Part shown: piece by piece, positions 48,265-64,000 of the stretch
How positions within the stretch are numbered: the stretch's first letter is position 1
How the letters are laid out: every line of letters begins with the position of its first letter
Source of the DNA: Trinickia dinghuensis
GTDB taxonomy: Bacteria > Pseudomonadota > Gammaproteobacteria > Burkholderiales > Burkholderiaceae
Reading direction: 5' to 3'
Assembly: GCF_003367175.1 (NCBI RefSeq)
Contig: NZ_QRGA01000017.1
Location: 124,001 to 188,000 of the forward strand
DNA: 64,000 nucleotides
Notes under the pieces: model-generated
Database searches by the model: none
Seen by the model: only the letters and a program-made list of their open reading frames with translations
What the model was told of the DNA's origin: nothing
Translations under genes and position numbers: made by a program

Positions 48265-48487
48265 CGCTTGCTCCTTGAAGAACGACGAACTCGCTTCGTT
48301 AGCGAGCGCTCCGGCCTCGCCGGGGGATGACGCAAAGCGCGCTCTCCGATGACTATAGGTTGCACGCGTGGACTTTGCCTGCCGTAAGCGGCAATGGGCC
48401 TGTCACGCTCGACAAGCGCAATTTGCGTGACACACGACCGCCGCGTCTCGAACGGGCGTTTGAAGGCGCCGTCGCCATGACGAGCCA

Positions 48488-48513
48488 AGACAGGGGAAAC
48501 CCTGTCTTTTTTT
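48488..48513 (+). terminator. Strong intrinsic-terminator hairpin (element copy A)
   Basis: An 8-bp perfect stem AGACAGGG / CCCTGTCT with a GAAA tetraloop, followed by seven T residues (48507-48513). On the plus strand it has the full form of a Rho-independent terminator, yet no plus-strand gene ends before it: the upstream neighbour is divergent. It lies 45 bp before the conserved promoter-like motif at 48535, a geometry repeated at 52293 and 61501. Confidence 0.75.
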
Positions 48514-48534
48514 CTCGATGCGTTGTTGGGTATC

Positions 48535-48566
48535 ATGACCTAAGTTTGGTAATGTGTACTAATTAA
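48535..48566 (+). promoter_or_regulatory. Repeated promoter/operator element, copy A
   Basis: The motif reads ATGACCTAAGTTTGG-TAATGTGTACTAATTAA. It aligns base for base with copies at 52337 and 61545; the shared pattern is TGACYTAA, then GG-A-TGTGT-CTA. Read as sigma-70, TGACC is a -35-like box and TACTAA the -10-like box, 16 bp apart. The flavoprotein gene begins about 70 bp downstream. The first gene of each of the three units has such a copy. Confidence 0.65.
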
Positions 48567-48638
48567 GAAAACGACACCGACCGAGGCCAGCGACGCCGGC
48601 CATCGATTCATTGCTTTCAGAAGAGTGACGAACACACC

Positions 48639-50126
48639 ATGGCAAAGAAGTCTTCCCACAACATGGCCGACGTGCAGCGCAGGCAATGGCTCAAGTACGC
48701 CGGCGCATCCGCGGCAGCGGGCGCCCTGGCGTTGGGCGCGGGACCGGCAAGGGCTGCCGCGGCCACGGTCAAGGCGGCCGGCAATTCGAGCGATGTGCTC
48801 GACGTGGTCATCATCGGTGCGGGGCTGGCCGGTTTGACGGCCGCGCGCGATTTGCGCCTAGGCGGCTGCGAATCGTTTCTGGTCCTTGAAGCGCGCAATC
48901 GCGTGGGAGGACGAACGCTCAATTACGAAGTGGGCGGCGGCTACATTTCCGAAGTCGGCGGACAGTGGATCGGCCCCGGCCAGACAGCCGTGGCGGATTT
49001 GGCTCGACAGTTGGAAGTGGGCACATTCCCTAGCTACTACGAGGGGAAGACGGTCATTCTCGGCGGCCAGGGCCGCGTGGAAACGGATCTGCACGGCACC
49101 TTCGGCACCGACGAGGCGATCGGCGCGAAGCTGAGCGCGATGTCCCGCGACGTGCCCTCCGGCGCGCCCTGGACATCGCCGAAAGCGAGTGAGCTCGACA
49201 AGCTTTCGATGGGCGATTGGCTCGGCAAACAGAAGATCGGTCCCGAAGATCGCATCGGATGGAACGGCTCGAGCCTGCTTTCCGGCGGCGCCATGCCAGC
49301 CAAGATGGGGTTGTTGCATTTTCTGTCGATGATCAATTCGGCCGACTGCGACTTCTCTCAGCTCGACTCGATCAAGCACAGCGCGCAGGAAACCCGCTTC
49401 ATCGGGGGCTCCCAAATTCTCAGCACCAAGATGGCGCGGGATTTAGGCGACAAAGTACGTATGTCGTGTCCCGTTCGCAAGATTTCAGGCTGGGGCGGCG
49501 AGGTGGTCACGCTACATACGGATCTCGGCGATGTGCGCGCCCGGAAAGTCATCATGTGTATCCACCCGGCCTTGTGCAACCAAGTGCAATTCGATCCGCC
49601 GCTGCCGGAAACGCGTGCGGCGCTGCAACGCGCTTGGCCCGGCCACTCGCCGGCGCGCAAAACGGCGATGGTCTATCGCCGTCCGTTCTGGCGCGACAAG
49701 GGGCTCAACGGTCATATCTTTCAAATCGGCGGACCCATCATTTGGGCTTACGACAACTCGCCTCCCGATGGAGCGATCGGGATCATCAACGCGTTCGTCA
49801 TGAATGCCGAACTGCCGTCCGATTACGAGGCCGCGAAGCAGATTCAGGCGCAGCTTTACGCGCAGGCGTGGGGCGAGGAGGCGTTGCATCCGGTGTCGTA
49901 TCACGATCGCGATTGGGGACGTGACGATCCTTGGACGATCACTTGCGTCTCGGCAATTCCACCAGGCTTCTGGACCGCTCACGGCGAGGCATTGCGCGCA
50001 CCGTGCGGCAATTTGATCTGGTCGGGCACCGAGACCGCGGACATCTGGGCCGGCTACATGGACGGCGCCGTGCGCTCCGGCCATCAAGGCGCGCTTCAGG
50101 CGCTCAACGCGCTTCGCAGCGTTTAG
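48639..50126 (+). CDS. Tat-exported amine-oxidase-fold flavoprotein (first paralogue)
   Basis: A 495-residue FAD protein of the monoamine oxidase superfamily. Residues 1-41 are a Tat signal (RR at 14-15 in QRRQWLKY, then an Ala-rich stretch ending ARAA), so it should be folded with FAD and sent to the periplasm. FAD motifs are VVIIGAGLAGLTAARDL (57-72), LEARNRVGGRT, GGQWIGPGQ and the C-terminal SGTETADIWAGYMDGAVRSG. By eye alignment with MAO-B, the conserved lysine (K341) is kept, the covalent-FAD cysteine is absent, and the aromatic-cage tyrosines are Cys436 and Tyr473. The cytochrome c gene follows by 14 bp, recalling NicA2-CycN. Substrate unknown. Confidence 0.87.
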   Translation: MAKKSSHNMADVQRRQWLKYAGASAAAGALALGAGPARAAAATVKAAGNSSDVLDVVIIGAGLAGLTAARDLRLGGCESFLVLEARNRVGGRTLNYEVGGGYISEVGGQWIGPGQTAVADLARQLEVGTFPSYYEGKTVILGGQGRVETDLHGTFGTDEAIGAKLSAMSRDVPSGAPWTSPKASELDKLSMGDWLGKQKIGPEDRIGWNGSSLLSGGAMPAKMGLLHFLSMINSADCDFSQLDSIKHSAQETRFIGGSQILSTKMARDLGDKVRMSCPVRKISGWGGEVVTLHTDLGDVRARKVIMCIHPALCNQVQFDPPLPETRAALQRAWPGHSPARKTAMVYRRPFWRDKGLNGHIFQIGGPIIWAYDNSPPDGAIGIINAFVMNAELPSDYEAAKQIQAQLYAQAWGEEALHPVSYHDRDWGRDDPWTITCVSAIPPGFWTAHGEALRAPCGNLIWSGTETADIWAGYMDGAVRSGHQGALQALNALRSV

Positions 50127-50140
50127 GAAGGAGAGCGAAG

Positions 50141-50797
50141 ATGAAAAAGTTCATGTTGCTCGCGGTTCCCATCATCGTGGTCTTGCTGCTCGTTCTGTTC
50201 GGCCCGAGCCTTCTAGGTGTTTATCGTCTTCAGCAGTACGTGACGGCTTCGGCCGAGTCCTATAAAGCCGACGGCGGCGACTGGCCGCATCTGACCGATG
50301 TCTGCATGGGGTGCCATGGCGTTAAAGGGCATTCGCTCCATCAAGGCTACCCGAGCCTCGCGGGACAGCCGGCGCTCTACGTTGCGGCCGAGCTTCGCGA
50401 CTTCGCGCGCGGACAGCGCAAAAGCCCGCAGATGAACCCTTTGGCGATGACGATGACCGACGCGCAAATCAAGCTGCTGTCCGATTACTACTCGCGGCAG
50501 AGCGTCGGCGCGAACCGCTACTTCCAGGCCGATCCGCAGTTGCGCGCGAAGGGCGAGGAATTGGTCAAGAGCGGGACCTGTACCGCATGCCACGGTGCTC
50601 GCCTAATGGGCCAAGCGCAATTCCCGAGACTGGCTGCTCAAGGCGACGACTACCTGCGTGAGCAACTCGACGCATTTGCATCAGGCACCCGCACCGAGTC
50701 CACCGGCACGATGCAGCGCCTCGCCGCGGCGATGTCGCCGGAGGACCGAAAGGCGGTCGCCGCCTATCTCGCCAGCCTCAAACCCGACACGAAGTAA
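50141..50797 (+). CDS. Membrane-anchored dihaem cytochrome c
   Basis: A 218-residue c-type cytochrome. An N-terminal hydrophobic segment (FMLLAVPIIVVLLLVLFGPS, no clear cleavage site) would anchor it with the rest in the periplasm. Two haem sites are present: C55-M-G-C58-H59 and C147-T-A-C150-H151, so it has two cytochrome c class I domains of the c4 type (GYPSLAGQPALYVAAELRDF and FPRLAAQGDDYLREQLDAF). A strong GGAAGGAG precedes the ATG. It most probably takes electrons from the flavoprotein encoded just upstream and passes them to the respiratory chain. Confidence 0.9.
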   Translation: MKKFMLLAVPIIVVLLLVLFGPSLLGVYRLQQYVTASAESYKADGGDWPHLTDVCMGCHGVKGHSLHQGYPSLAGQPALYVAAELRDFARGQRKSPQMNPLAMTMTDAQIKLLSDYYSRQSVGANRYFQADPQLRAKGEELVKSGTCTACHGARLMGQAQFPRLAAQGDDYLREQLDAFASGTRTESTGTMQRLAAAMSPEDRKAVAAYLASLKPDTK

Positions 50798-50831
50798 AGA
50801 ATCGACACCAATCCGCATCAGGAGATTAGTC

Positions 50832-51470
50832 ATGGATCTTAGAAGTTGCAGCATTTGTTTTGCCTGCGCGTTGCTTATCGCAACGTCGGGCGTGTTTGGA
50901 TGGAAGCTCGTCAAGAAAGGCAACTATTTGCTGGGCCTCGAATGGTGGGCCGTCACGTTTTCCGCGTCGAACTTTCTGATCTACTTGCTGACGAGTTCGT
51001 CGATCAACTACGAAGTCGCGCATTTCATGGATGCGTTTTCACGGGGCTTCGGCGTCCCGATCATCGCGGTCGGCGGGTTGATGGTCGTGACGCATGGCTA
51101 CAGACCGACAGTCGCCCACGATATCGTGCTCTTCGGTATGGCTATCCTCGGTACCTTCGTGTTGGTGTCGGCCGATTTCGTGACCGAAATCCTGCCTTAC
51201 TTCTACGTGGTGATGTGGACATTGCTGTCGCTCTACCTGCTGCTCTTCATCAAGCGATTGGTAAAGCAAGGGGAGGCCTTTCACGCGATGACGGTAACCC
51301 TGGCGTTGATCGCATCGCTCGGCATCGCGGGTATCTACGATTTCTACAAGATTCCCGGCGGCGACCACAACATCATCTTCAACTTCTTCGTCCTCGCGCT
51401 CACCACGTGGTCCTACATGATCGCCTCGCTTTCCTATGCGTACTTCGCGTTGGAGCGGGGGCGCGCGTAG
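50832..51470 (+). CDS. Seven-helix membrane protein, unknown function
   Basis: A 212-residue integral membrane protein with seven predicted hydrophobic segments from ~5 to ~205 and very short loops. A cysteine cluster CSICFAC lies at residues 6-12 in the first helix. Conserved-looking polar spots inside the membrane are GLEWWAVTFSASNF, HFMDAFSRGFGVP and IYDFYKIPGGDHNI. AGGAG precedes the ATG. It is the third gene of the first unit, 34 bp after the cytochrome. I cannot place it in a known family. A quinone-linked electron carrier or a transporter subunit is possible. Confidence 0.72.
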   Translation: MDLRSCSICFACALLIATSGVFGWKLVKKGNYLLGLEWWAVTFSASNFLIYLLTSSSINYEVAHFMDAFSRGFGVPIIAVGGLMVVTHGYRPTVAHDIVLFGMAILGTFVLVSADFVTEILPYFYVVMWTLLSLYLLLFIKRLVKQGEAFHAMTVTLALIASLGIAGIYDFYKIPGGDHNIIFNFFVLALTTWSYMIASLSYAYFALERGRA

Positions 51471-51490
51471 TTCGCCCCGAACCGGAGAGA

Positions 51491-52225
51491 ATGATGAATC
51501 AGACATCAAGCAAGATCGCCCGCCTCACGGCATGGAGCGCGATCGTCGGCGGTCTGCTCGCCTACGCGAACGTGGGCTTGTCGGTGGCGGTGACCGGATC
51601 GGATGCCGGCATGATTCTTCACGGCGCATCGATGCTGTCCCTGCCGTCCGACACCCGCGATTTGTTCAATTGGTGCATGGTCGCCGACATATTCGGCTTC
51701 TATCTCCCGTTCGCGGTGGTCGGCGGGTACTTCCTGCACGTGTTCCGTGACGAGTTGGGTGCACTCGGCAACATGGTGGCGTTCGCCATTGGCCTATACA
51801 TCATGGTGGGAATTGCCGGAGCGGCGATGCAGCTCGGCATTCTCGATCCGCTTGCACGGACCTATGCGGGCGGCGACGATGCGACGAAGGCGGCTGCGGC
51901 GGCGGCGTGGTCGACTGTCGCCAACGCGACCCAGAACGGATTATGGTGGTGCGAAGGACCACTCGTGCTGTTCTGGACGCCGATTGCAGCCAACGTCCTC
52001 GAGCGAGCAGGGTGGCGTGGATCATTCCTATTGAAGTTCGTCGGCTGGGGATTCGGAGCCTTTTTCCTGTTCGGTTTTTTCCCGGGACGCGACGTCCTTT
52101 CGAATGCGAGCGAGTTGATTGTCGTGCTGGTGCTGCCGCTGTGGATGCTGCTGTTCGGCTGGCAGTTGCTGCGGCGGATGCGGACTTCCGTCGAACCGAA
52201 TGCAGGGGTCGCCGCCTCGTCCTGA
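51491..52225 (+). CDS. Six-helix membrane protein, unknown function
   Basis: A 244-residue integral membrane protein with about six hydrophobic segments (ARLTAWSAIVGGLLAYANVG; VADIFGFYLPFAVVGGYFLH; GNMVAFAIGLYIMVGIAGAA; GLWWCEGPLVLFWTPIAANV; LLKFVGWGFGAFFLFGFF; LIVVLVLPLWMLLFGWQLL). A large loop near 125-150 is Ala/Asp-rich. GGAGAGA stands just before the ATG at 51491. An ATG three bases later is equally possible. The family is not recognised. It closes the first unit, 20 bp after the preceding membrane-protein gene, and both likely work with the flavoprotein-cytochrome pair. Confidence 0.72.
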   Translation: MMNQTSSKIARLTAWSAIVGGLLAYANVGLSVAVTGSDAGMILHGASMLSLPSDTRDLFNWCMVADIFGFYLPFAVVGGYFLHVFRDELGALGNMVAFAIGLYIMVGIAGAAMQLGILDPLARTYAGGDDATKAAAAAAWSTVANATQNGLWWCEGPLVLFWTPIAANVLERAGWRGSFLLKFVGWGFGAFFLFGFFPGRDVLSNASELIVVLVLPLWMLLFGWQLLRRMRTSVEPNAGVAASS

Positions 52226-52336
52226 GGTTATCTCGCCCCGATTCGTCCGCCCATCGGTATTACCCAAACCCCGCGATACCGCCACATATGGAACAAGGGA
52301 ATACCCCGGCTTCTTCTTTTTCTTTTGTTTGTCATC

Positions 52337-52368
52337 ATGACCTAACTTTGGCAGTGTGTTCTAGTACT
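52337..52368 (+). promoter_or_regulatory. Repeated promoter/operator element, copy B
   Basis: ATGACCTAACTTTGG-CAGTGTGTTCTAGTACT, matching copy A at most positions. It lies 31 bp upstream of the DUF1329 gene's ATG. A weaker hairpin-like sequence (ACAAGGGAATACCCC, 52293-52307) followed by a T-rich run starts 44 bp before it, the same distance as in the other two copies. Confidence 0.65.
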
Positions 52369-52398
52369 GCGCCGCCGTTGATCGGAAGGAGAACCTTG

Positions 52399-53760
52399 AT
52401 GAAGATGCACACAATCGGAGCCGCGTCCGCTGTCGCGGCAGCTTTACTGCTCATCGGCCACGTTGCGTTTGCGGATGATCTGACGCCGGTCGGCGCCGAT
52501 CGGGCTGCGAGCAAGGACGGCCTCGTTCCGGCCTTCTCGGGACGCCAAGCACCGGACGCAGGCTGGGCCTACGGCAAGTTTCGCGGTGACTTTTGGAAGC
52601 ACAAAGGCGAGAAGCCGCTGTATTCGATCGACGCTCAAAACGTCGACAAATACGCCGACAAACTTTCGCCGGGCGAGATCCAGCTGATCAAGCAGCAGAA
52701 GGGCTATCGGATGGACGTCTATCCGTCGCATCGCGAATGCGAGCTGCCGGATTTCGTCGAGAGCAATTCTCAAGCGAACCTGACGCAGGCGAAGCTTGCG
52801 TCCGACGGTGAAACAGTTCAGGCAGCGGTGTTCCCCGGTGTTCCGTTCCCACAGCCGAAGAACGGCGCCGAGGCCATCCTGAACTATGAGACGCGCTATC
52901 GAGGCGAAGGAATCGAATGGGCGCCGCTCGTCACCGTGATCTCTCCGCGCCCGGGCAGCAGCGACTGGATCGATGCCACGGGGCCGCAGGTCTTCTATTT
53001 CGCCGCCGGCAAGGACGGCAAGGCATCACCTCAGAGCGTCGATCAACTGAGCCTGGCCGCCTACTTTTCGATCGATTCGCCGCCGGCGCTCGCCGGGCAG
53101 GCTTTCGTCCAGCGCCAGTACTTCGATAAGGACTCCGAAACGTACTACTACTTTCCGGGGCAACGTCGCGTGCGGCGCATGCCGGCCTACACGCACGACG
53201 CGCCGCTGATCGGCTTCGAAAATCAGTATCTGATCGACGAATCCAACATGTTCAACGGCTCGATCGACCGCTTCAACTGGAAGCTGGTCGGCAAGAAGGA
53301 AATGATCGTGCCGTACGACGATTTCGGCATGTACACCTTCAACACGAAGCTGCGTGACGTGGCCACGCCGGCCGGTATCGCACCCGATCACCGCCGGTAT
53401 GAAGTGCACCGCGTCTGGGAGGTCGAGGCGACGCTCAAGCCTACCGCGCGCCACGCCGCATCGAAGAAGGTCTTCTATCTCGATGAGGACAGCTGGCTCG
53501 CGCTCGTCGGCGAGGACTACGACGCGCAAGGCAAGCTCTGGAAGGTACGTGAAAGCTATCCGATTCCGGTCTGGGAGCTGGGCGGAGCCTGCGATAACGA
53601 GCCGTTCGCGCAGTACGACCTCAGTGACGGGCGTTACGTTTTCGACGGCTCGTCGATCGGCCAAGGCAAGGACATTCGCTGGTACGAACAAATCAACGAT
53701 CCGCGTTTCAAGCAGGATTTCTACACGGCGGAATCGTTGCGGTCCGTGAGCGAGCGCTAA
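52399..53760 (+). CDS. DUF1329 periplasmic/outer-membrane protein
   Basis: A 453-residue exported protein of the DUF1329 family. A Sec signal peptide (MKMHTIGAASAVAAALLLIG, cleaved near VAFA-DD) is followed by DLTPVGADRAASKDGLVPAF, the characteristic family start. Other family stretches are YYYFPGQRRVRRMPAYTHDA and MNGSIDRFNWKL-like FNGSIDRFNWKLVGKKEM. The DUF1329 fold is predicted to be LolA/LolB-like in related proteins. The gene nearly always travels with DUF1302 and MMPL genes, as here. GGAAGGAG precedes the ATG. A lipid- or hydrophobe-carrying role in the envelope is inferred. Confidence 0.88.
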   Translation: MKMHTIGAASAVAAALLLIGHVAFADDLTPVGADRAASKDGLVPAFSGRQAPDAGWAYGKFRGDFWKHKGEKPLYSIDAQNVDKYADKLSPGEIQLIKQQKGYRMDVYPSHRECELPDFVESNSQANLTQAKLASDGETVQAAVFPGVPFPQPKNGAEAILNYETRYRGEGIEWAPLVTVISPRPGSSDWIDATGPQVFYFAAGKDGKASPQSVDQLSLAAYFSIDSPPALAGQAFVQRQYFDKDSETYYYFPGQRRVRRMPAYTHDAPLIGFENQYLIDESNMFNGSIDRFNWKLVGKKEMIVPYDDFGMYTFNTKLRDVATPAGIAPDHRRYEVHRVWEVEATLKPTARHAASKKVFYLDEDSWLALVGEDYDAQGKLWKVRESYPIPVWELGGACDNEPFAQYDLSDGRYVFDGSSIGQGKDIRWYEQINDPRFKQDFYTAESLRSVSER

Positions 53761-53829
53761 GACTCATCGCAAAAACAGGGAACGGCGAGCCCCAAAGGCG
53801 TTCGCCGGTACGAGGTTGACGGTGGAGAC

Positions 53830-55659
53830 ATGATGAAAACGAAGACGATCGGCAGGCACGCGGCGGTTTCGCTGGCGATGTTCGGAGCGGCGGTGCCGAC
53901 TGCATACGCTTACCAGTTTTCCACGGGGATCAACGATCTCACGGGATCGTGGGTGACGAATCTCACGGCGGGGGCGGGGATTCGCACGAAGAATCCGAGT
54001 TGCTCGCTCACCGGAGATCCGAACTCGTTCGGCTGCGGAGCGGGGGCGAACACCAATCAATGGGGCTTCGGCGACGATGGCGATTTGAACTATCGCAAGG
54101 GTCAACCGTTCAGCACGTACATCAGCGCGACGAGCGAATTGCTGATGACGATGCCCAGCGAAGGCCTCAAGTTCATGGTGCGCGGCACCGGGATGTACGA
54201 CTTCCTCGCCGGCGATACCAATCGAACGCCGCTGTCGAGTACGGCCAAGGCGCAGGTCGTCTACAACGCGCAGCTGCTCGATCTGTGGGCCGAGAAGGAC
54301 TTCACGATCAACGGCGAGGCAGCGCATTTCCGGCTCGGTAACCAGGTGATCAACTGGGGCGAGAGCATGTTCGCGATGGGCGGCATCAACGCCACCAACT
54401 CGCTCGACATCCAGAAATTGCTGATCCCCGGCTCGCAATTGAAGCAAGCGCTGCTGCCGGCGCCGATGCTCAGCTTCGCGGCAAATCTCGGTCACGGCAT
54501 CAGCACCGAGGACTACTATCAGTTTCAGTGGAACGGCAACCGCTATCCGCCGGTCGGGTCGTTCTGGTCGACCACGAATATCCTGGGCCTTGGGATCGAA
54601 CCGCTGACGGTCAGCACAAATAATCTGAACGCGGCGGGTCCGAGTGCGGGGACGATCGCAGGACCGAGCAGCGGCAATCAAGGCACCCTCAACGGGATCT
54701 ACAACGGTTTGGTCAACGGGGCGTACGCCGGGCCGCCGTACAACGACATCGGCCTTCCTGTCGGTTGGCAATCGCCTTCGAAGTACAAGCCGCAGTTCGG
54801 CGTGAAGTTCAACTATTCGCCGCGCTCGTTCGACGCGAACTTCGCGTTCTACTATGAGAACTACACCGACAAATCTCCCGTGCTCAGTTCGCTGGCGAAT
54901 GGGACGGCGCAGTGGTCGTATCTGCAGAACCGGCAGCTGTTCGGCGTCAGCGCGAACTTCGGGCTGGGCCCGTGGGCAATCGGCACCGAGCTGTCGTATC
55001 GCCCTCACGATGCCGTGGCGCTGTCGAGCTGCTATGGCGCGGGCGGTCCGCTCGATCTGAACACGAACGGCGTGGCCGGCATCAATTGCAATCAATGGGC
55101 CGACGAGAAGAAGTTTCAGTACGACCTCAACGGCATCCTGGCGCTCACGCGCAGCGAGTATCCGTTTCTGAAGCTGATCGGCGCGGATAGCGCGGCGCTG
55201 ACGTGGGAACTCACGTGGATCTATTACCCAGGGTTGAGCTCGAGCGGCGTGACGCGCACGGTCAATGGGCAGACGGTCACGCAGGTGCCGCAGGCGGGCT
55301 ACCTGCCGTGGCTGACCAACGGAACGCTCGGCTATCCGGTCACGATGGCGCAGGGCACATCGAGTTCAGTGGGGGCCACGGTCGACTTCAACTGGACCTA
55401 TGACGGCTCCCTGATACACGGCTGGCAGGTCACCCCGGGCATCACATTCGCCGATGGACTGTACGGCTACACGCCGACGCTGAGCGCGAATTACTTGCAG
55501 GGTGCGAAGTCGGTGAACCTCTACGTGCTGTTCAACCAGAACCCGGCGGTCTGGCAAGCGGGCATCAACTACACGATGTTCTGGGGCGGGCACAACACCG
55601 TGGGCAATCCCTACTCGGATCGCAATTTCGTCGGGATGTTCGTGACGCGCAACTTCTGA
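53830..55659 (+). CDS. DUF1302 outer-membrane protein
   Basis: A 609-residue predicted outer-membrane beta-barrel of the DUF1302 family. A signal peptide (MMKTKTIGRHAAVSLAMFGA, to ~AYA) is followed by YQFSTGINDLTGSWVTNLTA. Family stretches include FRLGNQVINWGESMFAMGGI with NATNSLDIQKL, and PAPMLSFAANLG. The chain ends in MFVTRNF with a C-terminal Phe, as outer-membrane barrels do. It lies between the DUF1329 and MMPL genes and would form the outer-membrane part of a hydrophobe uptake or export path. Confidence 0.88.
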   Translation: MMKTKTIGRHAAVSLAMFGAAVPTAYAYQFSTGINDLTGSWVTNLTAGAGIRTKNPSCSLTGDPNSFGCGAGANTNQWGFGDDGDLNYRKGQPFSTYISATSELLMTMPSEGLKFMVRGTGMYDFLAGDTNRTPLSSTAKAQVVYNAQLLDLWAEKDFTINGEAAHFRLGNQVINWGESMFAMGGINATNSLDIQKLLIPGSQLKQALLPAPMLSFAANLGHGISTEDYYQFQWNGNRYPPVGSFWSTTNILGLGIEPLTVSTNNLNAAGPSAGTIAGPSSGNQGTLNGIYNGLVNGAYAGPPYNDIGLPVGWQSPSKYKPQFGVKFNYSPRSFDANFAFYYENYTDKSPVLSSLANGTAQWSYLQNRQLFGVSANFGLGPWAIGTELSYRPHDAVALSSCYGAGGPLDLNTNGVAGINCNQWADEKKFQYDLNGILALTRSEYPFLKLIGADSAALTWELTWIYYPGLSSSGVTRTVNGQTVTQVPQAGYLPWLTNGTLGYPVTMAQGTSSSVGATVDFNWTYDGSLIHGWQVTPGITFADGLYGYTPTLSANYLQGAKSVNLYVLFNQNPAVWQAGINYTMFWGGHNTVGNPYSDRNFVGMFVTRNF

Positions 55660-55746
55660 TCGTCGCATTGCCGAAGTACCGCATTGCCGGGAGACGGCAT
55701 CGACGTTCGATGCCGATGCCGTCCACATGTTTGAAGGGAATCTGTC

Positions 55747-58107
55747 GTGTTGAATCGTATAGTCAAAACGCTGGAAAGGATGTTCTTCGGCCACCGCACG
55801 GCCGTGCTCGTGACGATCGGGTTGTTTACCGCCGTCATGGCGGTGTTCGCAGTCCAACTGCGCATGGATGCGGGCTTCGAGAAGCAGATGCCGATCGGCC
55901 ATGAATACATCCGTACCTTCCAGAAATACCGTTCGGATCTGCTGGGCGCGAATCGGATTACGGTGGTCGTGCGCGCCCGCAAAGGTTCGATCTGGACGAA
56001 GGCGGGGCTCACGCGCCTGTACAAGGTGACCCAGGCCGTCACGTATCTGCCGAACGTGGATCGGATCGGCGTGCGATCGCTTTGGACGCCGAACGCCTAC
56101 GTCAACGAGATTACCGACGAAGGGTTTCGCGCCGAACCGATCATTCCCGGCACGATTACGCCCGATCAGTTGACGCCGGATGTCGTCGGCAAGATCCGCC
56201 GCGCCACGACAGTCGCCGGTTATGTCGGCACGCTGGTCTCGCACAACGAAGACAGCGCGATGATCACGGCTGAACTGAACGAACGGGACCGCAACGGCAA
56301 GGTGCTCGATTACATCGCCTTCAACCATCTGCTCGAAGCGCAGATCCGCAAGCCGTTCGAGGATGCCGGCTATGAGATCCAGATCATCGGCTTTGCCAAG
56401 CAGATCGGCGACATCGCGGACGGCGCCAAGGCGGTGCTCGGTTTCTGCGGGATCGCGCTGCTGCTGACCGCACTTGCGGTTTACTGGTACTGCCATTCGG
56501 TTCGCTTCACGGTCCTGCTGATCTCGTGTTCCTTGACGTCGCTCGTCTGGCAGTTCGGAACGTTGAGGATTCTAGGCTTCGGTCTTGATCCTCTCGCGGT
56601 GCTGGTCCCATTCCTCGTGTTCGCGATCGGCGTTTCACACGGCGTGCAGCAGGTCAATTTCATTGTGCGCGAGATCGCCCACGGCCATAGCTCGTATGAT
56701 GCGGCGCGCGAGAGCTTCCGGGGGCTGCTGATTCCGGGCGTGCTGGCGCTCGTGACGGCGTTCGTTTCGTTCATCACGCTGCTGCTGATTCCGATTCCGA
56801 TGGTGCGTGAGTTGGCGATCACGGCATCGCTCGGCGTGGCCTACAAGATCGTCACGAATCTGATCCTGCTGCCGGTTGCCGCTTCCTGCTTCAACTTTAC
56901 GAAGGCCTACGCCGACAGCGCGCTCGAGCGTGCCGAGCAGCGCGCAAGGCCGCTGCGCGTGCTCGCGAAAGTCGCGCAGCCAAAATGCGCCTTGTTGGCC
57001 GTCGCGCTGACGTTCGTCGTGTTCGCGCTGGCTGCATGGCAAAGCCGCGACCGCGTGATCGGCACGCTGCAGCCCGGCGCACCGGAGTTGCGCGCGGACG
57101 CGCGTTTCAATCGGGATGCAACGTCGATCGCGGGCAATTACGACATCGGCCTCGACTGGCTGACGGTGGCGATCGAATCGAAAGGCAAGGCCTGCGACAA
57201 CCCGGCGGTCGGCCTCTATGAGGACGACTTCACGAGCGCCATGCGTACCGAACCTGGCGTTGTTTCGGTCGAATCCTATTCGGCGATGCTGCGTCGCTAC
57301 AACCAGGGCTACAACGAGGACTACCCGAAGATGAACGTCGTGCCGATCGATCCGGAGAACTACGGGGCGGTGTCGGTCGATGTCGGCCGCGTGAAGGGCT
57401 TCATGAGAAGCGATTGCAGCATGACGGCCGTGCATCTGTTCCTCAGCGATCACAAGGCCACGACGATCAATCGGGTGCTCGACGATGTGAAGCAATACCG
57501 TGCCTCGCATCCGTTCCCCGGCATCAACGTGCGCTTGGCGGCGGGCAACGCGGGCGTGCTGGCCGCGACGAACGAAGAGGTGGCAAAGAGCGAGTTGCCG
57601 ATGATGCTGTACGTGTACGCGGCGATCGTGATTCTCGTGTTCCTTGCGTACCGCGACTGGCGCGCGATGTTGGCCTGCTGCGTGCCGCTGTCGGTCGCCA
57701 CCTTCATCGGCTACTGGTTCATGAAGGAGTTGCAGATCGGGCTGACGGTGGCAACGCTGCCCGTGATGGTGCTGGCCGTGGGGATCGGCGTGGATTACGC
57801 GTTCTATATCTACAACCGGCTGCAAGTGCACCTCGCCGGCGGTCAGACGATTGTGAAGGCGGTGCAGCATGCCATGCTCGAAGTGGGCGTGGCGACGATC
57901 TTCACGGCGATCACGCTGGCCATCGGCGTGGCGACGTGGAGCTTCTCGGCCCTCAAATTCCAGGCCGACATGGGCAAGCTGCTCGCGTTCATGTTCCTCG
58001 TGAATCTGCTGATGGCGATGACGGCGCTGCCTGCCTTGGCCTCGATTCTCGAGCGCTGGTTCCCGCGCCGCAAACCGGCGCGCGCACCGGGCTTGTTCAG
58101 CCACTGA
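55747..58107 (+). CDS. MMPL/RND-superfamily hydrophobe transporter
   Basis: A 786-residue RND-superfamily protein of the MMPL/HpnN-like branch, built as two repeats. Each has one N-terminal helix, a periplasmic domain (~45-210 and ~440-610) and a six-helix bundle (~225-390 and ~620-765). Signature stretches are FLVFAIGVSHGVQQVNFIVR and VMVLAVGIGVDYAFYIYNRL (sterol-sensing-type G-x-x-x-D helix). The start is GTG at 55747 behind AAGGGA. Such proteins move lipids or other hydrophobic molecules across or out of the inner membrane. Here it would work with DUF1329 and DUF1302. Confidence 0.88.
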   Translation: MLNRIVKTLERMFFGHRTAVLVTIGLFTAVMAVFAVQLRMDAGFEKQMPIGHEYIRTFQKYRSDLLGANRITVVVRARKGSIWTKAGLTRLYKVTQAVTYLPNVDRIGVRSLWTPNAYVNEITDEGFRAEPIIPGTITPDQLTPDVVGKIRRATTVAGYVGTLVSHNEDSAMITAELNERDRNGKVLDYIAFNHLLEAQIRKPFEDAGYEIQIIGFAKQIGDIADGAKAVLGFCGIALLLTALAVYWYCHSVRFTVLLISCSLTSLVWQFGTLRILGFGLDPLAVLVPFLVFAIGVSHGVQQVNFIVREIAHGHSSYDAARESFRGLLIPGVLALVTAFVSFITLLLIPIPMVRELAITASLGVAYKIVTNLILLPVAASCFNFTKAYADSALERAEQRARPLRVLAKVAQPKCALLAVALTFVVFALAAWQSRDRVIGTLQPGAPELRADARFNRDATSIAGNYDIGLDWLTVAIESKGKACDNPAVGLYEDDFTSAMRTEPGVVSVESYSAMLRRYNQGYNEDYPKMNVVPIDPENYGAVSVDVGRVKGFMRSDCSMTAVHLFLSDHKATTINRVLDDVKQYRASHPFPGINVRLAAGNAGVLAATNEEVAKSELPMMLYVYAAIVILVFLAYRDWRAMLACCVPLSVATFIGYWFMKELQIGLTVATLPVMVLAVGIGVDYAFYIYNRLQVHLAGGQTIVKAVQHAMLEVGVATIFTAITLAIGVATWSFSALKFQADMGKLLAFMFLVNLLMAMTALPALASILERWFPRRKPARAPGLFSH

Positions 58108-58185
58108 TGCGCATGGATGTCGACGAGCACGATGACAGTACTAGCAAGCCACAGAGAGTGACTGAGACCTACCGAGACTGAAGCC

Positions 58186-59163
58186 ATGATCAAAACGCTT
58201 ATTGCCGCCGCCGCGCTGTGTGCGAGTGCCGCCGCGTTCGCCGGAGCTGGAACTGGAGCCGCCGGAACGGTAGCGGATTGGGCCGCGATGCCCGCCCATG
58301 CGTGGCCCGCACCGGCTCACATGATGCTCATGGACGCCGCGCGCGCGGGTTCGCGCCTTGTCGCCGTGGGCGAGCACGGCGTCATCGTTCATTCGGACGA
58401 TGGCGGGACAACGTGGCAGCAGGCCAGCAAAGTGCCGGTTTCGGCAACGCTGTCGGCGGTTACGTTCACCGACGCCCAGCACGGTTGGGCGGTCGGTCAA
58501 TGGGGCGTGATTCTCGCGACGAGCGACGGCGGCGATACGTGGCGCAGGCAGCGCATCGACCTTTCGACCGATCAGCCGCTGTTCTCCGTCCTCTTCACGA
58601 GCGCGAGGGACGGGATCGCGGTGGGCCTGTGGTCGCTGATGCTGGTCACGCACGATGGCGGCCTTACATGGACCAAGGTCGCGGTGCCGAAACCGCCGGG
58701 GGCGAGTCGAGCAGACCGCAATCTCTATCACCTCTTCGCTGATCGCCAAGGCGCGCTGTACATCGACTCGGAACAAGGGATGGTGCTCAAGTCGACCGAC
58801 GGCGGCGCGGATTGGACTTACCTCACGACAGGCGGCAAAGGCACGTTGTGGAGCGGAGTGGCATTACCCGACGGGCGGATCGTCGTGGGCGGTTTGCTAG
58901 GCAGCATGTACCAGAGCACCGACGGCGGCACGACGTGGTCGCCGGTGAACACGGGCACGAAAAGCTCGATCACGGATCTGGTTGCAGCGGGCAACGGACT
59001 GCTCGGTGTCGGGCTCGACGGCTTGGTGTTCAAGCAGCGCACCGCGGGCGAGTCGCTCGAGGTCATGCACCGGGAGGATCGCGCGACGCTGACCGCGGCG
59101 CTGCCCGAACCGGGGGCTAAGGAGATGCTGTTTTCACAGGATGGCGTGCTCGCATCGCGTTGA
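58186..59163 (+). CDS. YCF48-like beta-propeller, exported
   Basis: A 325-residue protein with a signal peptide (MIKTLIAAAALCASAAAFAG) and repeated Asp-box/BNR motifs: HSDDGGTTWQQ, TSDGGDTWRR, THDGGLTWTK, STDGGADWTY and STDGGTTWSP, about 40-60 residues apart. This is the YCF48/Hcf136-like propeller. Photosystem assembly is the named role in cyanobacteria, but bacterial homologues next to DUF1302/DUF1329/MMPL genes have another, unknown job, perhaps as a periplasmic scaffold. It starts 78 bp after the MMPL gene; the ribosome site is weak. Confidence 0.87.
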   Translation: MIKTLIAAAALCASAAAFAGAGTGAAGTVADWAAMPAHAWPAPAHMMLMDAARAGSRLVAVGEHGVIVHSDDGGTTWQQASKVPVSATLSAVTFTDAQHGWAVGQWGVILATSDGGDTWRRQRIDLSTDQPLFSVLFTSARDGIAVGLWSLMLVTHDGGLTWTKVAVPKPPGASRADRNLYHLFADRQGALYIDSEQGMVLKSTDGGADWTYLTTGGKGTLWSGVALPDGRIVVGGLLGSMYQSTDGGTTWSPVNTGTKSSITDLVAAGNGLLGVGLDGLVFKQRTAGESLEVMHREDRATLTAALPEPGAKEMLFSQDGVLASR

Positions 59164-59227
59164 GGCATGGCCGGTATGACCTTGCAACACGTGCGTCTCG
59201 CGAGCATCGACGAGCAGGGGGCACGAA

Positions 59228-60736
59228 ATGAAAATCGATTGGGCAACGAAGATGGATCGAAAACGCAAACCTAGGCCGGATCCGCAGACCCGGCGCCAGC
59301 TCTTGCGTCTCGCGGCGGTGGGCGCCGCGTCGCTGGCGGCCGGTGAAGTGTCTTCGGCACGTGCGGCAGTATCCAAGGGGGCCGACGGCGGCGTCCTGGA
59401 CGTCGCGATCGTCGGCGCCGGTCTCGCGGGATTGACCGCGGCGCGCGACCTGAAGCGCGCTGGGTGCGACTCATTCGTCGTGCTGGAAGCGCGCAACCGC
59501 GTCGGCGGGCGCACCTTCAATCACGATCTCGGGCATGGGGTCATCTCCGAGGCGGGAGGGCAATGGATCGGCCCGGGCCAGACGGCGATCGCCGACCTTG
59601 CGCGTGAACTCGAGGTCGGCACGTTCCCGACGTACTACGCCGGCAAGTCGGTCGTGCTGGCGGGCGATGCACGCGTGACGCAGGATTTCAACGGCGGCAC
59701 GGGCGGCGACGAGGCGATCGGCGCCAAGCTCGGAGAACTAGCGCGTGGGGTGCCTTCGGCCGAGCCGTGGAAAGCTCGGCACGCCGCGGAACTCGACGAT
59801 CTGTCGTATGGCGATTGGCTGCTGAAGCAAGGCGTGAACTACGAGAACGGCTATTTCCTCGGTCTGGCCGCGAAGCTTTCCCTCGGCGGTGCGCCCGCCC
59901 AGCTCGGGTTGCTGCACTACTTGTCGATGGTCAACAGCGCGAGCTGCAAGTACGACCAGCTGGAAGCAATCAAAGGCGGTGCGCAGGAAACGCGCTTCGT
60001 CGGCGGCTCACAGGTTCTGAGCATCAAGATGGCAAACGAACTTGGCAGCAAGGTGCGGCTCGCATGCCCGGTCCGAAAGATCTCGGGCTGGAATAGCAGC
60101 GTCGTCGAATTGCATACCGATCAAGGCGTCGTGCGCGCGCGCCGGGTCATCACCGCAATCAATCCGGCGCTGTGCAATCAGATTGCCTTCGATCCTCCGC
60201 TTCCGCAAGGGCGCGCACAGCTGCAGCAACGTTGGCCCGCCAACGCGCCGATGCGCAAAACGGTGCACGTCTACGACAAGCCGTTCTGGCGCGACGACGG
60301 CTACTGCGGCGAGATCTTTCAAGTCGGCGGGCCGGTATTTCTCGCCTACGACAATTCGCCGCCCGACGCATCGCTCGGCGTGATTGCCGCGTTCGTTCCG
60401 CCGGGCGCGTTGCCGAGCGATTCCAAGGGGGCGGAGCAAGCGCTATCCGCCGTCTATGCCAAAGCATTCGGGGAAAAGGCGCTGCATCCGACGCAATACC
60501 ACGACTACGATTGGGGCCGAGTCGATCCGTGGACTTTGCAATGCATTCATCCGCTGCCGCCCGGCTTCTGGACCACGTGGGGCGAATACCTGCGTCCCGA
60601 GGTGGGCGCGTTGATCTGGTCGGGGACGGAAACGGCCGACATCTGGGCCGGTTCGATGGACGGTGCCGTGCGATCCGGACACCGCGCGGCCTTGCAAGCG
60701 CTGGCGGCGCTGGCGCAGCCGAGCGAGGTGGCCTAG
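59228..60736 (+). CDS. Tat-exported amine-oxidase-fold flavoprotein (second paralogue)
   Basis: A 502-residue paralogue of the flavoprotein at 48639, with many identical blocks (GAGLAGLTAARDL, LEARNRVGGRT, GGQWIGPGQTA, VRKISGW, SGTETADIWAG). A Tat signal is present (RR at 22-23 in QTRRQLLRL, cleavage near SARA). By alignment with MAO-B, the conserved lysine is kept (RKTVHVYDKPFWR), the covalent-FAD Cys is missing, one aromatic-cage Tyr is Cys and the other is Ser476 (AGSMDG) where the first paralogue has Tyr473. This single difference could change substrate choice. The cytochrome gene follows with no gap. Confidence 0.87.
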   Translation: MKIDWATKMDRKRKPRPDPQTRRQLLRLAAVGAASLAAGEVSSARAAVSKGADGGVLDVAIVGAGLAGLTAARDLKRAGCDSFVVLEARNRVGGRTFNHDLGHGVISEAGGQWIGPGQTAIADLARELEVGTFPTYYAGKSVVLAGDARVTQDFNGGTGGDEAIGAKLGELARGVPSAEPWKARHAAELDDLSYGDWLLKQGVNYENGYFLGLAAKLSLGGAPAQLGLLHYLSMVNSASCKYDQLEAIKGGAQETRFVGGSQVLSIKMANELGSKVRLACPVRKISGWNSSVVELHTDQGVVRARRVITAINPALCNQIAFDPPLPQGRAQLQQRWPANAPMRKTVHVYDKPFWRDDGYCGEIFQVGGPVFLAYDNSPPDASLGVIAAFVPPGALPSDSKGAEQALSAVYAKAFGEKALHPTQYHDYDWGRVDPWTLQCIHPLPPGFWTTWGEYLRPEVGALIWSGTETADIWAGSMDGAVRSGHRAALQALAALAQPSEVA

Positions 60737-61417
60737 ATGAAGCGCGCAATCATCATCGGTGCCATTGTCGCAATCGCGGGGCTCTCGGGCGTAGGTGCGC
60801 TCTATGGACGGGACTTGCTCGACGGCATGCAGTTCGAAAAAGCGATGGGCGAGATCGGTAAGGCGAACGAGGCCAACGCCGGTTCCTGGCCGCAACCTCA
60901 AGAGACCTGTTTCTTCTGCCACGGCGCGCACGGCCAGTCGTCCAATTCTTGGTACCCGTCGCTGTCGGGTCAGCCGGAGGCTTATGTCATCGCTCAGTTG
61001 CACGCGTTCGCCGAGGATAAGCGCCGCAACCCCTACATGGGACCGCTGGCGAGATCGCTCACGGACGATCAGATGGAAGCCATGGCGGCGTACTTCGCAC
61101 GGCAAACCCCGGCGCGAAACGAAAGCGTTCAAGCCGACGCGGCGCTGAAACAGCGAGGTCTGGCTTTGATCCGAGCGAGCAGTTGTCAAGCTTGCCATGG
61201 CATTGCCCTGATGGGTAAGGAGAAGACGCCGCGCCTAGCGGGTCAGGGCGAAGGGTATCTGGCGAATCAGCTTGCCGCGTTCAAGACGGGGCAGCGTCTC
61301 GACCCGGCCGGGCCGATGAACGGTATCGCGTCCACGTTGTCCACGGACGATATCCGAGCGGTGGCCCGTTATATCGCAAGCCTCTCGCCTGACGGACACG
61401 CTGTCGGTACGCAATAG
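60737..61417 (+). CDS. Membrane-anchored dihaem cytochrome c (second paralogue)
   Basis: A 226-residue c-type cytochrome, paralogous to the one at 50141. One N-terminal hydrophobic anchor (AIIIGAIVAIAGLSGVGALY), then two haem motifs, C58-F-F-C61-H62 and C150-Q-A-C153-H154, in two c4-like domains. Its ATG follows directly on the TAG of the flavoprotein gene, so the two are translated together. It is the presumed electron acceptor of that flavoprotein. A terminator hairpin stands 83 bp after the stop and ends the second unit. Confidence 0.9.
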   Translation: MKRAIIIGAIVAIAGLSGVGALYGRDLLDGMQFEKAMGEIGKANEANAGSWPQPQETCFFCHGAHGQSSNSWYPSLSGQPEAYVIAQLHAFAEDKRRNPYMGPLARSLTDDQMEAMAAYFARQTPARNESVQADAALKQRGLALIRASSCQACHGIALMGKEKTPRLAGQGEGYLANQLAAFKTGQRLDPAGPMNGIASTLSTDDIRAVARYIASLSPDGHAVGTQ

Positions 61418-61703: not shown

Positions 61704-62834
61704 ATGGCAAAGCATCCCGTCGTCGTCTATGGCGCAAGCGGTTATACCGGCATGTTGATCATGGACTGGCTGATCGACCAGAACATTCCTTTCACCGCCG
61801 TGGCGCGCAACGCAAAGCGCACCCAGGAGATGATGGCGCAGCGCGTCGTGCGCCTCGAATCGGCCGAGTACGAGATCATCGAGGCCGAACACAACGTCGA
61901 GGCGCTCACGGCCGCGTTCCGCGGCGCCAAGGTGGTTTGCAACACCGTGGGGCCGTTCTACAACTTCGGCCTCGTCGGCGTCGAAGCGGCACTGAAGGCA
62001 GGCTGCCACCACATCGACACCACGGGCGAGCAGAGCTATATCCGCGGCGTGCGCGACGAGTTCGGCGAGCACTATCGTCAGGCCGGGCTGCTCGTCGCGC
62101 CGTCGATTGCCTACATGTACTCGTATGCCGAAATCGCGGCGGAGCTCGCGCTCGAGACGCCCGGCGTCGATGCGCTGGAAACGGCTACGCTGACACGAGG
62201 CCCCCGTGCCGCCGCGGGCGTGAGCGTGGGCTCGACGGCCACGATCTTCGAAGGCGCGCGCCAGCATTCCTGCTACCTCTGGGAAAAGAAGCTCGAGCCG
62301 CACGCGCCCGATGCGTCGTTCAACGTGGTCGCGCCCGAGTTCATGCAGCCGGTGTTCTGTCTGCCGTGGGGCGGCACGTCGCTGCCCGTGCACTTCCAGC
62401 ACGATTCGCGGGTGCGCAGCTGCATTTCGAGTGTCGGCTTCTACGACAACAACGTGATGCGGGTGGTCCATGGCTTCGGGCAAAAGTGGGAAGCCGAGTA
62501 CAAGCATCTGCCGCGCGAACAGCAAGATGCGATTCTGAAGCAGGTCGTGGATTCGACAACGCCGTCGATGCCGCCGCGCGAACGCACGACGATTCAGCGC
62601 AGCGTCGATTTCGCGATCGGCCGTGGCCAGCTTGCATCGGTACGGGCAACCGTCTACGGCATCACGCCGTACATCGCCACCGGTGCGTTGCACGCGGCGG
62701 CCGCCATCAAGCTGCTCGACGGCGAAACCGCGAAGGTCGGCTTCGCATCGGGTTCGAAGGCGTTCGGCCACCGCTACCTGCTCGGCTTCCTCGAACAACG
62801 CGGCCTCGCGCGTGCGTCGGTGCAGCAGCAATGA
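61704..62834 (+). CDS. Saccharopine-dehydrogenase-like NAD(P)-binding protein
   Basis: A 377-residue Rossmann-fold protein of the saccharopine dehydrogenase-like family. The dinucleotide motif is VVVYGASGYTGMLIMDWL at the N-terminus, then CNTVGPFYNFGLVGVEAALK and CHHIDTTGEQSYIRG, which match the trans-acting enoyl reductase/saccharopine reductase-like group. No signal peptide, so cytoplasmic. CAGGAG lies 8 bp before the ATG at 61704. It probably reduces or oxidises an intermediate of the pathway. It is the first gene of the third unit and is followed after 42 bp by the ligase gene. Confidence 0.82.
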   Translation: MAKHPVVVYGASGYTGMLIMDWLIDQNIPFTAVARNAKRTQEMMAQRVVRLESAEYEIIEAEHNVEALTAAFRGAKVVCNTVGPFYNFGLVGVEAALKAGCHHIDTTGEQSYIRGVRDEFGEHYRQAGLLVAPSIAYMYSYAEIAAELALETPGVDALETATLTRGPRAAAGVSVGSTATIFEGARQHSCYLWEKKLEPHAPDASFNVVAPEFMQPVFCLPWGGTSLPVHFQHDSRVRSCISSVGFYDNNVMRVVHGFGQKWEAEYKHLPREQQDAILKQVVDSTTPSMPPRERTTIQRSVDFAIGRGQLASVRATVYGITPYIATGALHAAAAIKLLDGETAKVGFASGSKAFGHRYLLGFLEQRGLARASVQQQ

Positions 62835-62876: not shown

Positions 62877-64000
62877 ATGGCAATCATTGATTTCTTCGAC
62901 CGAGGGTGGCGCATCAATCCTCGCGGCGTTGCCTATATCCAAGACGAACGCAGTTTTTCGTTTCAGGAAATCGGCGATCTGTCTTGCCGGATCGCCAACG
63001 GGCTGGTTGCCGCCGGCTTCAGAAAAGGGACGAAGGCGGCGGTGTGGTCCGACAACGACGTCGTCGGCTGGAGCTGCGCGCTCGGCATGTGGCGTGCGGG
63101 GATGACCTACCTCCCCGTCAACGCGCGCAACGCGGTGGCCGAAAACCAATACATCCTCGATGCGTTCGACTGCGAAGCGCTGTTTTTCTCGCAAGCGTTC
63201 GCGGCGGCGATAGAAACGTTGCGCCCGAGCTTGCCGAAAGTGAAGCTCTGGGTGTGCATCGACGCCGATGTGCCGTGGGCGCCGTCGCTGGCGACGTGGA
63301 GCGAGGGTCAGCCGTCGGCGCCGCCTGCGATCGACTACGACATGCACGATGTCGTGACGCTGTCCGCAACGGGGGGCACGACGGGCGCCCCGAAGGGCGT
63401 GATGAATACGCACCGCGCGTTTCAGACGTACTTCGCGCAATTCATGATGGCGTTTCCATACGAGTCGGGGCGTCCCGTCAATCTCGCCGCGGCGCCGATG
63501 ACGCATACGGCCGGGATGCTCTCGCTGCCCTGCACGGCGCGAGGGGGGACGGTAGTCGTGCTGACGAAGCCCGATCCCGCGCTGCTGATCGGCGCGATCG
63601 CCAAGCACCGCGTCACCGAGTTGTTTCTGCCGCCGACGGTCATCTACCGTCTGATCGACATCCCTGGCATCGAGAAGCAGGATTTCTCGTCGCTCAAGTG
63701 CTTCCTCTATGGGGCCGCCCCGATGTCGGTCGAGAAGCTCAAGCGCGCGATCGAAGTGTTCGGCCCGGTCATGGCCGGCGGCTACGGGCAGACCGAAGCC
63801 CCGGCGTCGATTTCGTATCTGACGCCGGCCGAGCATTTCGTCGACGGCGCGCTGGCTTCCGACGAACGGTTGTCGTCGGTCGGCCGTCCCAATCCGCTTG
63901 TGCGCGTCGAGATCATGAACGATCGCGGCGACATCCTTGCGCAAGGCGAAACCGGCGAGATCTGCGTGCGGGGCGACCTCGTCATGAAGGGCTACTACAA
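62877..64000 (+). CDS. AMP-forming acyl-CoA ligase, 5' part (runs off the window)
   Basis: An open frame from the ATG at 62877 (behind AAGGGAAGA) to the window edge, 374 codons without a stop. It reads MAIIDFFDRGWRINPRGVAY at the start. The ANL nucleotide loop is LSATGGTTGAPKGVMNTHRA, followed by AAPMTHTAGMLSLP, LKCFLYGAAPMSVEKLK, GGYGQTEAPASI and the start of the GEICVRGDLVMKGYY motif. It resembles the fatty-acid or steroid/terpenoid acid CoA ligases of the FadD3/FadD13 style. The C-terminal lid with the catalytic lysine lies outside the window. A 362-codon antisense frame over the same stretch is a shadow. Confidence 0.88.
   Translation, partial: MAIIDFFDRGWRINPRGVAYIQDERSFSFQEIGDLSCRIANGLVAAGFRKGTKAAVWSDNDVVGWSCALGMWRAGMTYLPVNARNAVAENQYILDAFDCEALFFSQAFAAAIETLRPSLPKVKLWVCIDADVPWAPSLATWSEGQPSAPPAIDYDMHDVVTLSATGGTTGAPKGVMNTHRAFQTYFAQFMMAFPYESGRPVNLAAAPMTHTAGMLSLPCTARGGTVVVLTKPDPALLIGAIAKHRVTELFLPPTVIYRLIDIPGIEKQDFSSLKCFLYGAAPMSVEKLKRAIEVFGPVMAGGYGQTEAPASISYLTPAEHFVDGALASDERLSSVGRPNPLVRVEIMNDRGDILAQGETGEICVRGDLVMKGYY

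Follow-up and report, generated by a model that had tools for sequence, protein, structure and literature searches.

In a 64,000-nucleotide stretch of the Trinickia dinghuensis genome (the window; G000:C9:124001-188000 of a 7.37 Mb assembly in 49 contigs), two related flavoproteins of the monoamine oxidase (MAO) superfamily, here called A and B, are each followed by a gene for a dihaem cytochrome c, and a cassette resembling the AmeABCD transport genes lies between the two pairs. We propose, with a probability of about 60%, that A and B constitute a two-enzyme, periplasmic, cytochrome-linked amine dehydrogenase module of a recently described kind (clade 1, below) that serves a route for a hydrophobic amine, a reading built on sequence and on analogy with known systems. 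The genes and residues that carry this proposal are as follows.

48639..50126, + strand: flavoprotein A, 495 amino acids (aa), MAO-fold flavin adenine dinucleotide (FAD) protein with a twin-arginine translocation (Tat)-type motif and Lys341, Cys436, Val437 and Tyr473 (Pfam, alignment)
49944..49949, + strand: codons of A Cys436 and Val437, aligned with the MAO covalent-FAD cysteine and the first cage tyrosine (alignment)
50055..50057, + strand: codon of A Tyr473, second cage position (alignment)
50141..50797, + strand: cytochrome A, 218 aa, dihaem c4-type, hydrophobic N terminus (motifs, match in the Protein Data Bank (PDB))
59228..60736, + strand: flavoprotein B, 502 aa, MAO-fold FAD protein with a Tat-type motif and Lys344, Cys439, Ile440 and Ser476 (Pfam, alignment)
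60542..60547, + strand: codons of B Cys439 and Ile440 (alignment)
60653..60655, + strand: codon of B Ser476, second cage position (alignment)
60737..61417, + strand: cytochrome B, 226 aa, dihaem, hydrophobic N terminus (motifs)

Flavoproteins A and B are 61% identical, and both score far above the 19.8-bit cut-off of the Pfam family Amino_oxidase (PF01593; A 162.7 bits, B 184.1 bits), placing them in the flavin amine oxidase (FAO) superfamily. Their top PDB relatives are monoamine oxidase 8p84 (E 7e-83 and 1.5e-80), the putrescine oxidases and MAO-A/B. The twin arginine is invariant across a 43-row alignment, and a simple RR pattern occurs in 73 of 76 rows, the three misses being open reading frames (ORFs) that start inside the domain; A and B are predicted to be Tat-exported and to lie outside the inner membrane. 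Cytochrome A begins 14 bases after flavoprotein A, and cytochrome B immediately after flavoprotein B. Each cytochrome carries two CXXCH motifs and has a hydrophobic segment at its N terminus, from which we infer membrane attachment; the two are 41% identical, and the top PDB match of cytochrome A is cytochrome c4. A first-pass annotation made from the letters had described two exported flavoproteins, each with a dihaem cytochrome behind it, and these analyses bear out both the gene pairs and, at the level of the motif, the export signal. A hairpin resembling an intrinsic terminator stands 5′ of flavoprotein A, at window positions 48487-48508, and no sigma-70-like promoter was found in 48200-48700.

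This architecture matches a published class of enzymes. Akram et al. 2025 (PMC12224317) describe three clades of cytochrome-linked FAOs, of which clade 1 combines Tat-exported FAOs with membrane-bound dihaem c4-type cytochromes of about 20 kDa. Three cytochrome-linked clade 1 enzymes were tested (B. metallica, P. aeruginosa and B. stagnalis): their O2 rates of 160-590 per M per s come close to that of free flavin, and with their cognate cytochromes in solution they reach 290-2700 per M per s; a clade 1 relative without a nearby cytochrome gene reaches 4500 per M per s with O2 (PMC12224317). In the window, the twin arginine and gene order point to a Tat signal with an adjacent cytochrome gene, and the CXXCH motifs, hydrophobic N termini and c4 match of cytochrome A suggest a membrane-bound dihaem c4-type partner. 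The window pairs fit clade 1, on architecture and species names rather than tree placement; B. metallica LMG 24068 encodes homologues of both A and B. The precedent first offered for the locus, in which NicA2 passes electrons to the cytochrome CycN, was right in kind: Tat-exported FAOs with dihaem c4 cytochromes form a published class, three members of which are slow with O2 (PMC12224317).

We next assigned the active-site residues by sequence alignment to solved structures and to family members that lack an insertion found in A and B. HMMER places WTITCVSA of A over YSGGCYTA of MAO-A, with Cys436 on the motif cysteine and Val437 on the tyrosine that follows. We take the MAO-A cysteine to be the one that holds FAD covalently and the tyrosine after it to be the first cage tyrosine. 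Both A and B have one extra residue before the motif (at position 429 in A) and one fewer after the cysteine, so that the register shift is hidden in an ungapped alignment. Family rows L041, L053 and L083 do not have the extra residue, and L041 aligns with MAO-A and 8p84 without a gap from the preceding tryptophan to the cysteine, which settles the register of the cysteine. The first-pass annotation, one residue off at this point, had concluded that A and B lack the covalent-FAD cysteine and that one cage tyrosine had become a cysteine; Cys436 and Cys439 in fact align with the covalent-FAD cysteine, and the first cage position is Val437 in A and Ile440 in B. That these cysteines actually hold FAD is presumed from the alignment.

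Residue counts over 42 A rows and 33 B rows (40 and 33 distinct; L025/L089 and L040/L107 are duplicate genes, and the distant row L012 was excluded) extend this pattern to the relatives. The lysine at flavin N5 (Lys341 in A, Lys344 in B) is kept in 42/42 A and 33/33 B rows by alignment, as had been claimed for the window copies, and the cysteine is invariant in both sets. At the first cage position, A rows have valine (40) or isoleucine (2) and B rows isoleucine (24) or valine (9). The second position separates the paralogues, as the early contrast of Tyr473 with Ser476 implied: all 42 A rows have tyrosine, and B rows have alanine (18), serine (13) or glycine (2). A wider collection of copies, 103 from 59 genomes or records (96 distinct over 330 aa), has the cysteine throughout, and its first cage position is valine or isoleucine in 101 and threonine in two; two further copies, missed by the motif search and excluded from the 103, show the same cysteine. 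Against the two aromatic residues that define the FAO cage, A by alignment retains one and B none, and the absence in B holds across the B clade. The active site is thus remodelled, as first supposed, with other residues than those first named and with only the second cage position differing between the paralogues; overall, the initial observation was confirmed in part and its interpretation partly supported. Exceptions such as Asn462 of NicA2 exist, making FAO descent compatible with an altered cage. We found no report of an FAO clade without any aromatic cage residue in a word search of the accessible text of PMC12224317, the one search made by that name. In genome G342, three tandem FAO-cytochrome pairs (L111:7035-13179) include one copy with threonine at both cage positions.

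The pairing of flavoprotein with cytochrome, and of A with B, is close to constant among relatives. A two-haem cytochrome follows 102 of the 103 flavoprotein copies, and the remaining copy is an ORF fused to one. With duplicates kept, copies with a small residue at the second cage position have a cytochrome of the B type next in 44/44 cases; those with tyrosine have a cytochrome of the A type next in 49, one of the B type in 9 and none in 1, the fused ORF. In Cupriavidus sp. UYMMa02A (L026:9953-12040), flavoprotein A and its cytochrome form one frame of 696 aa, either a real fusion or an assembly error. Among 42 records with at least two copies, 39 combine one tyrosine type with one small-residue type (37 of 40 without duplicates); the exceptions, G105, G297 and G319, have two tyrosine types in the stretches examined.

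A contig scan located 42 loci in Burkholderia, Paraburkholderia, Cupriavidus, Ralstonia, Pandoraea, Pseudomonas, Ideonella and one Nevskiaceae genome. When the genomes behind 28 of these loci were searched, 25 gave at least two matches at E 1e-60; in G078 the second match is weak. A second sample, partly of the same assemblies, comprised 299 genomes from the family to which the window belongs, including the window genome: matches at E 1e-120 occur in 39 and are strong (above 700 bits) in 36, the three weaker genomes (G003, G240 and G343) being left out of carrier counts. All 36 strong carriers have at least two strong copies, two of them within 25 kb in 34. Nine of ten other genomes of the same genus have no match at E 1e-120, the tenth (G003) scoring 510 bits, and among 398 genomes sampled phylum-wide the window's own alone passes E 1e-150, indicating that the trait is rare.

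A tree of 78 rows groups 38 A rows in one clade (support 85/90) and the 33 B rows in a second (87/42), and both clades include Burkholderiaceae and Pseudomonadaceae; A and B labels were assigned by similarity to the window copies, and the tree has no fixed root. The A clade does not contain four rows that bear the A label: two from Ideonella stand beside B, and two (L087 and L041) have no resolved position. A single duplication predating both families would explain the tree, as would the spread of a ready-made pair between them. On a P. aeruginosa plasmid (L087:19797-29772) there is one match only, of A type with a cytochrome, and the same plasmid carries genes for a Baeyer-Villiger-type monooxygenase, an esterase, a GMC protein and an aldehyde dehydrogenase.

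Six genes lie between the two window pairs, in the order TM1, TM2, DUF1329, DUF1302, MMPL/RND and YCF48, and two further genes follow the B pair within the window:

50832..51470, + strand: TM1, hydrophobic and membrane-like by reading, no Pfam match (homologue in 33/42 loci)
51491..52225, + strand: TM2, hydrophobic and membrane-like by reading, no Pfam match (homologue in 14/42 loci)
52399..53760, + strand: DUF1329 protein, AmeB-like (Pfam)
53830..55659, + strand: DUF1302 protein, AmeA-like (Pfam)
55747..58107, + strand: MMPL/RND transporter of HAE3 type, AmeD-like (Pfam, TIGR00921)
58186..59163, + strand: YCF48/BNR protein, AmeC-like (Pfam)
61704..62834, + strand: DUF5938/saccharopine-dehydrogenase-like protein common to related islands (homologues in related loci)
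62877..64000, + strand: acyl-coenzyme A (CoA) ligase ACS2, continuing beyond the window end (homologues in related loci)

The DUF1302, DUF1329, YCF48 and HAE3-type RND genes are the set known as AmeABCD in Castellaniella (PMC6394551), and all four occur together in the window, where the RND protein scores 164.7 bits against the HAE3 model TIGR00921, below its cut-off of 351.9. Neither TM1 nor TM2 has a Pfam match even at E 10; TM1, for which 33 of the 42 loci have a homologue, may belong with the electron-transfer unit as a membrane partner. Beyond the window end, ACS2 is followed by a DAO-family flavoprotein, a TetR gene and an acyl-CoA dehydrogenase.

We surveyed neighbourhoods of up to 10 kb on each side of the 42 loci, 32 of which reach 21 kb. 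An Ame-like cassette, partial or full, is present in 31, with all four genes in 17, and is absent from 11. Recurrent neighbours are PhyH-like (22), RidA (21), DAO-type flavoprotein (21), ACS2 (20), DUF5938 (13), thiolase (13) and acyl-CoA dehydrogenase (13) genes, to which some Pseudomonas relatives add an aldehyde dehydrogenase, a GMC protein, a hormone-sensitive-lipase-type esterase and a Baeyer-Villiger-type monooxygenase. In 33 of the 36 strong carriers a DUF1302 gene lies within 20 kb of the copies; of the other three, G144 has the cassette (L129), and in G174 and G302 the copies are near contig ends. DUF1302 occurs in 105 of the 299 family genomes, so the cassette is commoner than the flavoprotein pair. 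A LuxR, ACS1, porin and alcohol dehydrogenase group lies upstream of the A pair, at 41399-48264. In the roughly 10 kb around the 42 loci, LuxR and alcohol dehydrogenase genes were found at none, a porin at one and an ACS1-like ligase at 18; a longer B. cenocepacia stretch has ACS1-like (54%) and LuxR-like (28%) genes at its far end. We count the group as outside the island.

The window genome itself offers a view of what such cassettes accompany. It has three DUF1302 matches and three AmeD-like transporters, and the window's own cassette, which cannot count for itself, is set aside as evidence for an amine. The second cassette adjoins an FAO with a Tat-type motif that matches the NicA2 structure group, a monohaem cytochrome and two aldehyde dehydrogenases (L010:10779-12637). 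The third adjoins a DAO flavoprotein, a cupin and a tryptophan tryptophylquinone (TTQ; mau) cluster of heavy chain, MauE, thioredoxin-like protein, light chain and cytochrome, whose TTQ chains are the only ones found in the genome:

L110:5285-9181 (G000:C7, about 92-96 kb) and L110:11139-17826: TTQ cluster beside an AmeABCD-like cassette

Across the 299 genomes, at least 7 of the 60 genes for a TTQ light chain have a listed DUF1302 match within 20 kb, where 0.45 would be expected (Poisson 5e-7; a weak fragment, G020, was dropped, and the genomes are related to one another). That the other two cassettes adjoin amine-type dehydrogenases favours, without proving, a hydrophobic amine over a terpene hydrocarbon, and the RidA- and DAO-type genes of the islands likewise seem to point to an amine.

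Taken together, these observations suggest that A and B probably take their electrons from a hydrophobic amine. Such an amine would be handled at the envelope by the AmeABCD-like cassette; A and B would oxidise C-N bonds, either in the amine itself or in products formed one after another, and would hand the electrons from their flavins through the c4 cytochromes to a terminal oxidase; and the resulting carbonyl or acid would be activated by a CoA ligase and degraded by the neighbouring acyl-CoA enzymes. The difference in cage residues, Val and Tyr in A against Ile and Ser in B, suggests that the two probably act on different substrates or sites. The earlier suggestion that they act on successive intermediates fits the co-retention of the paralogues, their differing second cage residues and their separate cytochromes, and substrates beyond simple primary amines are plausible, since by analogy the Ame-like cassette suggests a hydrophobic one. 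Several points weigh against the amine module. The lack of aromatic cage residues in B is unusual for an amine enzyme, such a cage being held important for amine positioning (PMC9396064). The clade 1 cytochrome rates are only about 2-5 times the O2 rates, and the accessible text of PMC12224317 gives no substrate for any clade 1 enzyme. No RidA-, PhyH- or thiolase-type homologue was seen between window position 34001 and the contig end. The TTQ statistic comes from related genomes, and 53 of the 60 light-chain genes have no neighbour among the DUF1302 matches listed. The Ame cassette, finally, was described for monoterpenes (PMC6394551), and a benzene degrader expresses a related DUF1329/YCF48/MMPL cluster (PMC13101534).

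A bolder version of the proposal takes B to be a MAO fold working without any aromatic cage on chemistry other than the oxidation of simple amines. Together with A it would dehydrogenate two sites of a hydrophobic, alkaloid-like molecule in a conserved periplasmic pathway of two steps, the electrons going to respiratory c4 cytochromes and the Ame-like cassette acting as dedicated envelope carrier; we consider this doubtful. The idea of a steroidal alkaloid as substrate was dropped as speculation after a literature search gave no match. We likewise rejected a Baeyer-Villiger route through a ketone for the window: genes resembling such monooxygenases lie near only 7 of the 42 loci (all four sequences examined have the motif), and no homologue was seen at the window locus. 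Somewhat less credible than the alkaloid-like scheme, and in our view unlikely, is a hydrocarbon role in which the two enzymes would introduce a hydroxyl group or a double bond at an allylic or unactivated carbon of a terpenoid or sterol within the periplasm, as do limonene dehydrogenase CtmAB or the sterol delta-24 desaturase, and the cassette would handle the apolar substrate. The monoterpene and benzene associations just cited suit this role, as do the cage of B and the thiolase and PhyH-type genes of the relatives, which would befit branched skeletons. However, the best matches of A and B are MAO-type and putrescine oxidases, whereas CtmAB is described as phytoene-dehydrogenase-like, with a histidyl flavin and a ferredoxin in its cluster; the terpene reading ranks lower because of the retained MAO cysteine, the separate cytochromes and the amine-type neighbours of the genome's other two cassettes.

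The amine module has further competitors. With 61% identity and identical architecture, A and B might be redundant isoenzymes, but both clades are retained side by side in two bacterial families, 22 sites are fixed in A and different in B, and the second cage residue is complementary in 39 of 42 records; we judge redundancy improbable. Slightly less probable again is a heterodimer with A and B as its subunits. The precedent of CtmAB, with its two related flavin subunits, and the near-constant co-occurrence of A and B speak for it. Against it, a distance of 2.5-17 kb separates the copies in 28 of 36 genomes, each has its own cytochrome behind it even in the tandem arrays (L111-L113), and the P. 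aeruginosa plasmid record has a single match of A type. The view that A and B are periplasmic amine oxidases using O2, with incidental cytochromes, can draw on the retained N5 lysine, which is tied to oxidase activity, and on the O2 rate of the clade 1 relative without a nearby cytochrome (PMC12224317). The slowness with O2 of the three cytochrome-paired enzymes and the cytochrome behind 102 of 103 copies make it very unlikely, the least probable of the readings considered.

The island context would add to what is known of these enzymes in several ways. Kinetics have been published for clade 1 FAOs, and the context suggests hydrophobic amines as their substrate class; an anchored c4 partner supports the explanation that the authors of PMC12224317 themselves give for the poor kinetics in solution. 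The B clade, which extends from Burkholderia to Pseudomonas, makes the role of the cage testable in a natural MAO-fold enzyme without aromatic cage residues. Should the link between Ame-like cassettes and amine dehydrogenases hold, a transporter family that has until now been associated with terpenes and hydrocarbons would gain a wider range, and should the two-step alkaloid-like scheme be true, Ame-like cassettes would carry hydrophobic amines in addition to hydrocarbons. We found no published description of the A/B pair together with an Ame-like cassette in a search that was thin on subscription papers; the separate A and B clades, the multiple copies in every strong carrier and the island with its AmeABCD-like cassette thus appear to be new. 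Further papers used were PMC4109377 and PMC11061730.

Comparison with known systems places the window pairs closest to clade 1, with which they share the Tat-exported FAO and adjacent membrane-bound dihaem c4-type cytochrome; the A/B pair and the Ame-like cassette are not treated in the accessible text of PMC12224317, where a word search gave no mention of gene cluster, neighborhood, aromatic cage or covalent. In P. putida S16, NicA2 and Pnao are likewise periplasmic Tat-exported FAOs that reduce a cytochrome c, two in one pathway, but they share a single cytochrome, CycN, whereas A and B each have their own. Their cages also differ from those of the window proteins: NicA2 has Trp427/Asn462 and Pnao Trp434/Phe470 (PMC9396064), where A has Val/Tyr and B has Ile/Ser; the NicA2 structure 7c4a shows Trp and Asn there in the alignment, and its Asn has been termed unusual and unique within the family (PMC9396064). 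8p84 and human MAO-A share the cysteine at the aligned position and have tyrosine at both cage positions, where A and B have Val or Ile at the first. To our knowledge, neither a Tat signal nor a cytochrome partner is known for 8p84, MAO-A or putrescine oxidase. CtmAB and the sterol delta-24 desaturase resemble the window system in having two related flavoproteins and hydrophobic substrates, and the CtmAB organism also has AmeABCD; compared by description only, CtmAB is a heterodimer with the ferredoxin encoded in the ctm cluster. SphBC of P. aeruginosa, which serves here as a precedent only, similarly combines a Tat-exported oxidoreductase with a cytochrome c and is needed for the metabolism of the hydrophobic amine sphingosine (PMC11893366), but its cytochrome is predicted to be monohaem (PMC3900636) and its oxidoreductase to be linked to FMN. 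AmeABCD of Castellaniella defragrans and the window cassette unite the same four genes, which in the window run in the order DUF1329, DUF1302, RND and YCF48 and are set between two FAO-cytochrome pairs.

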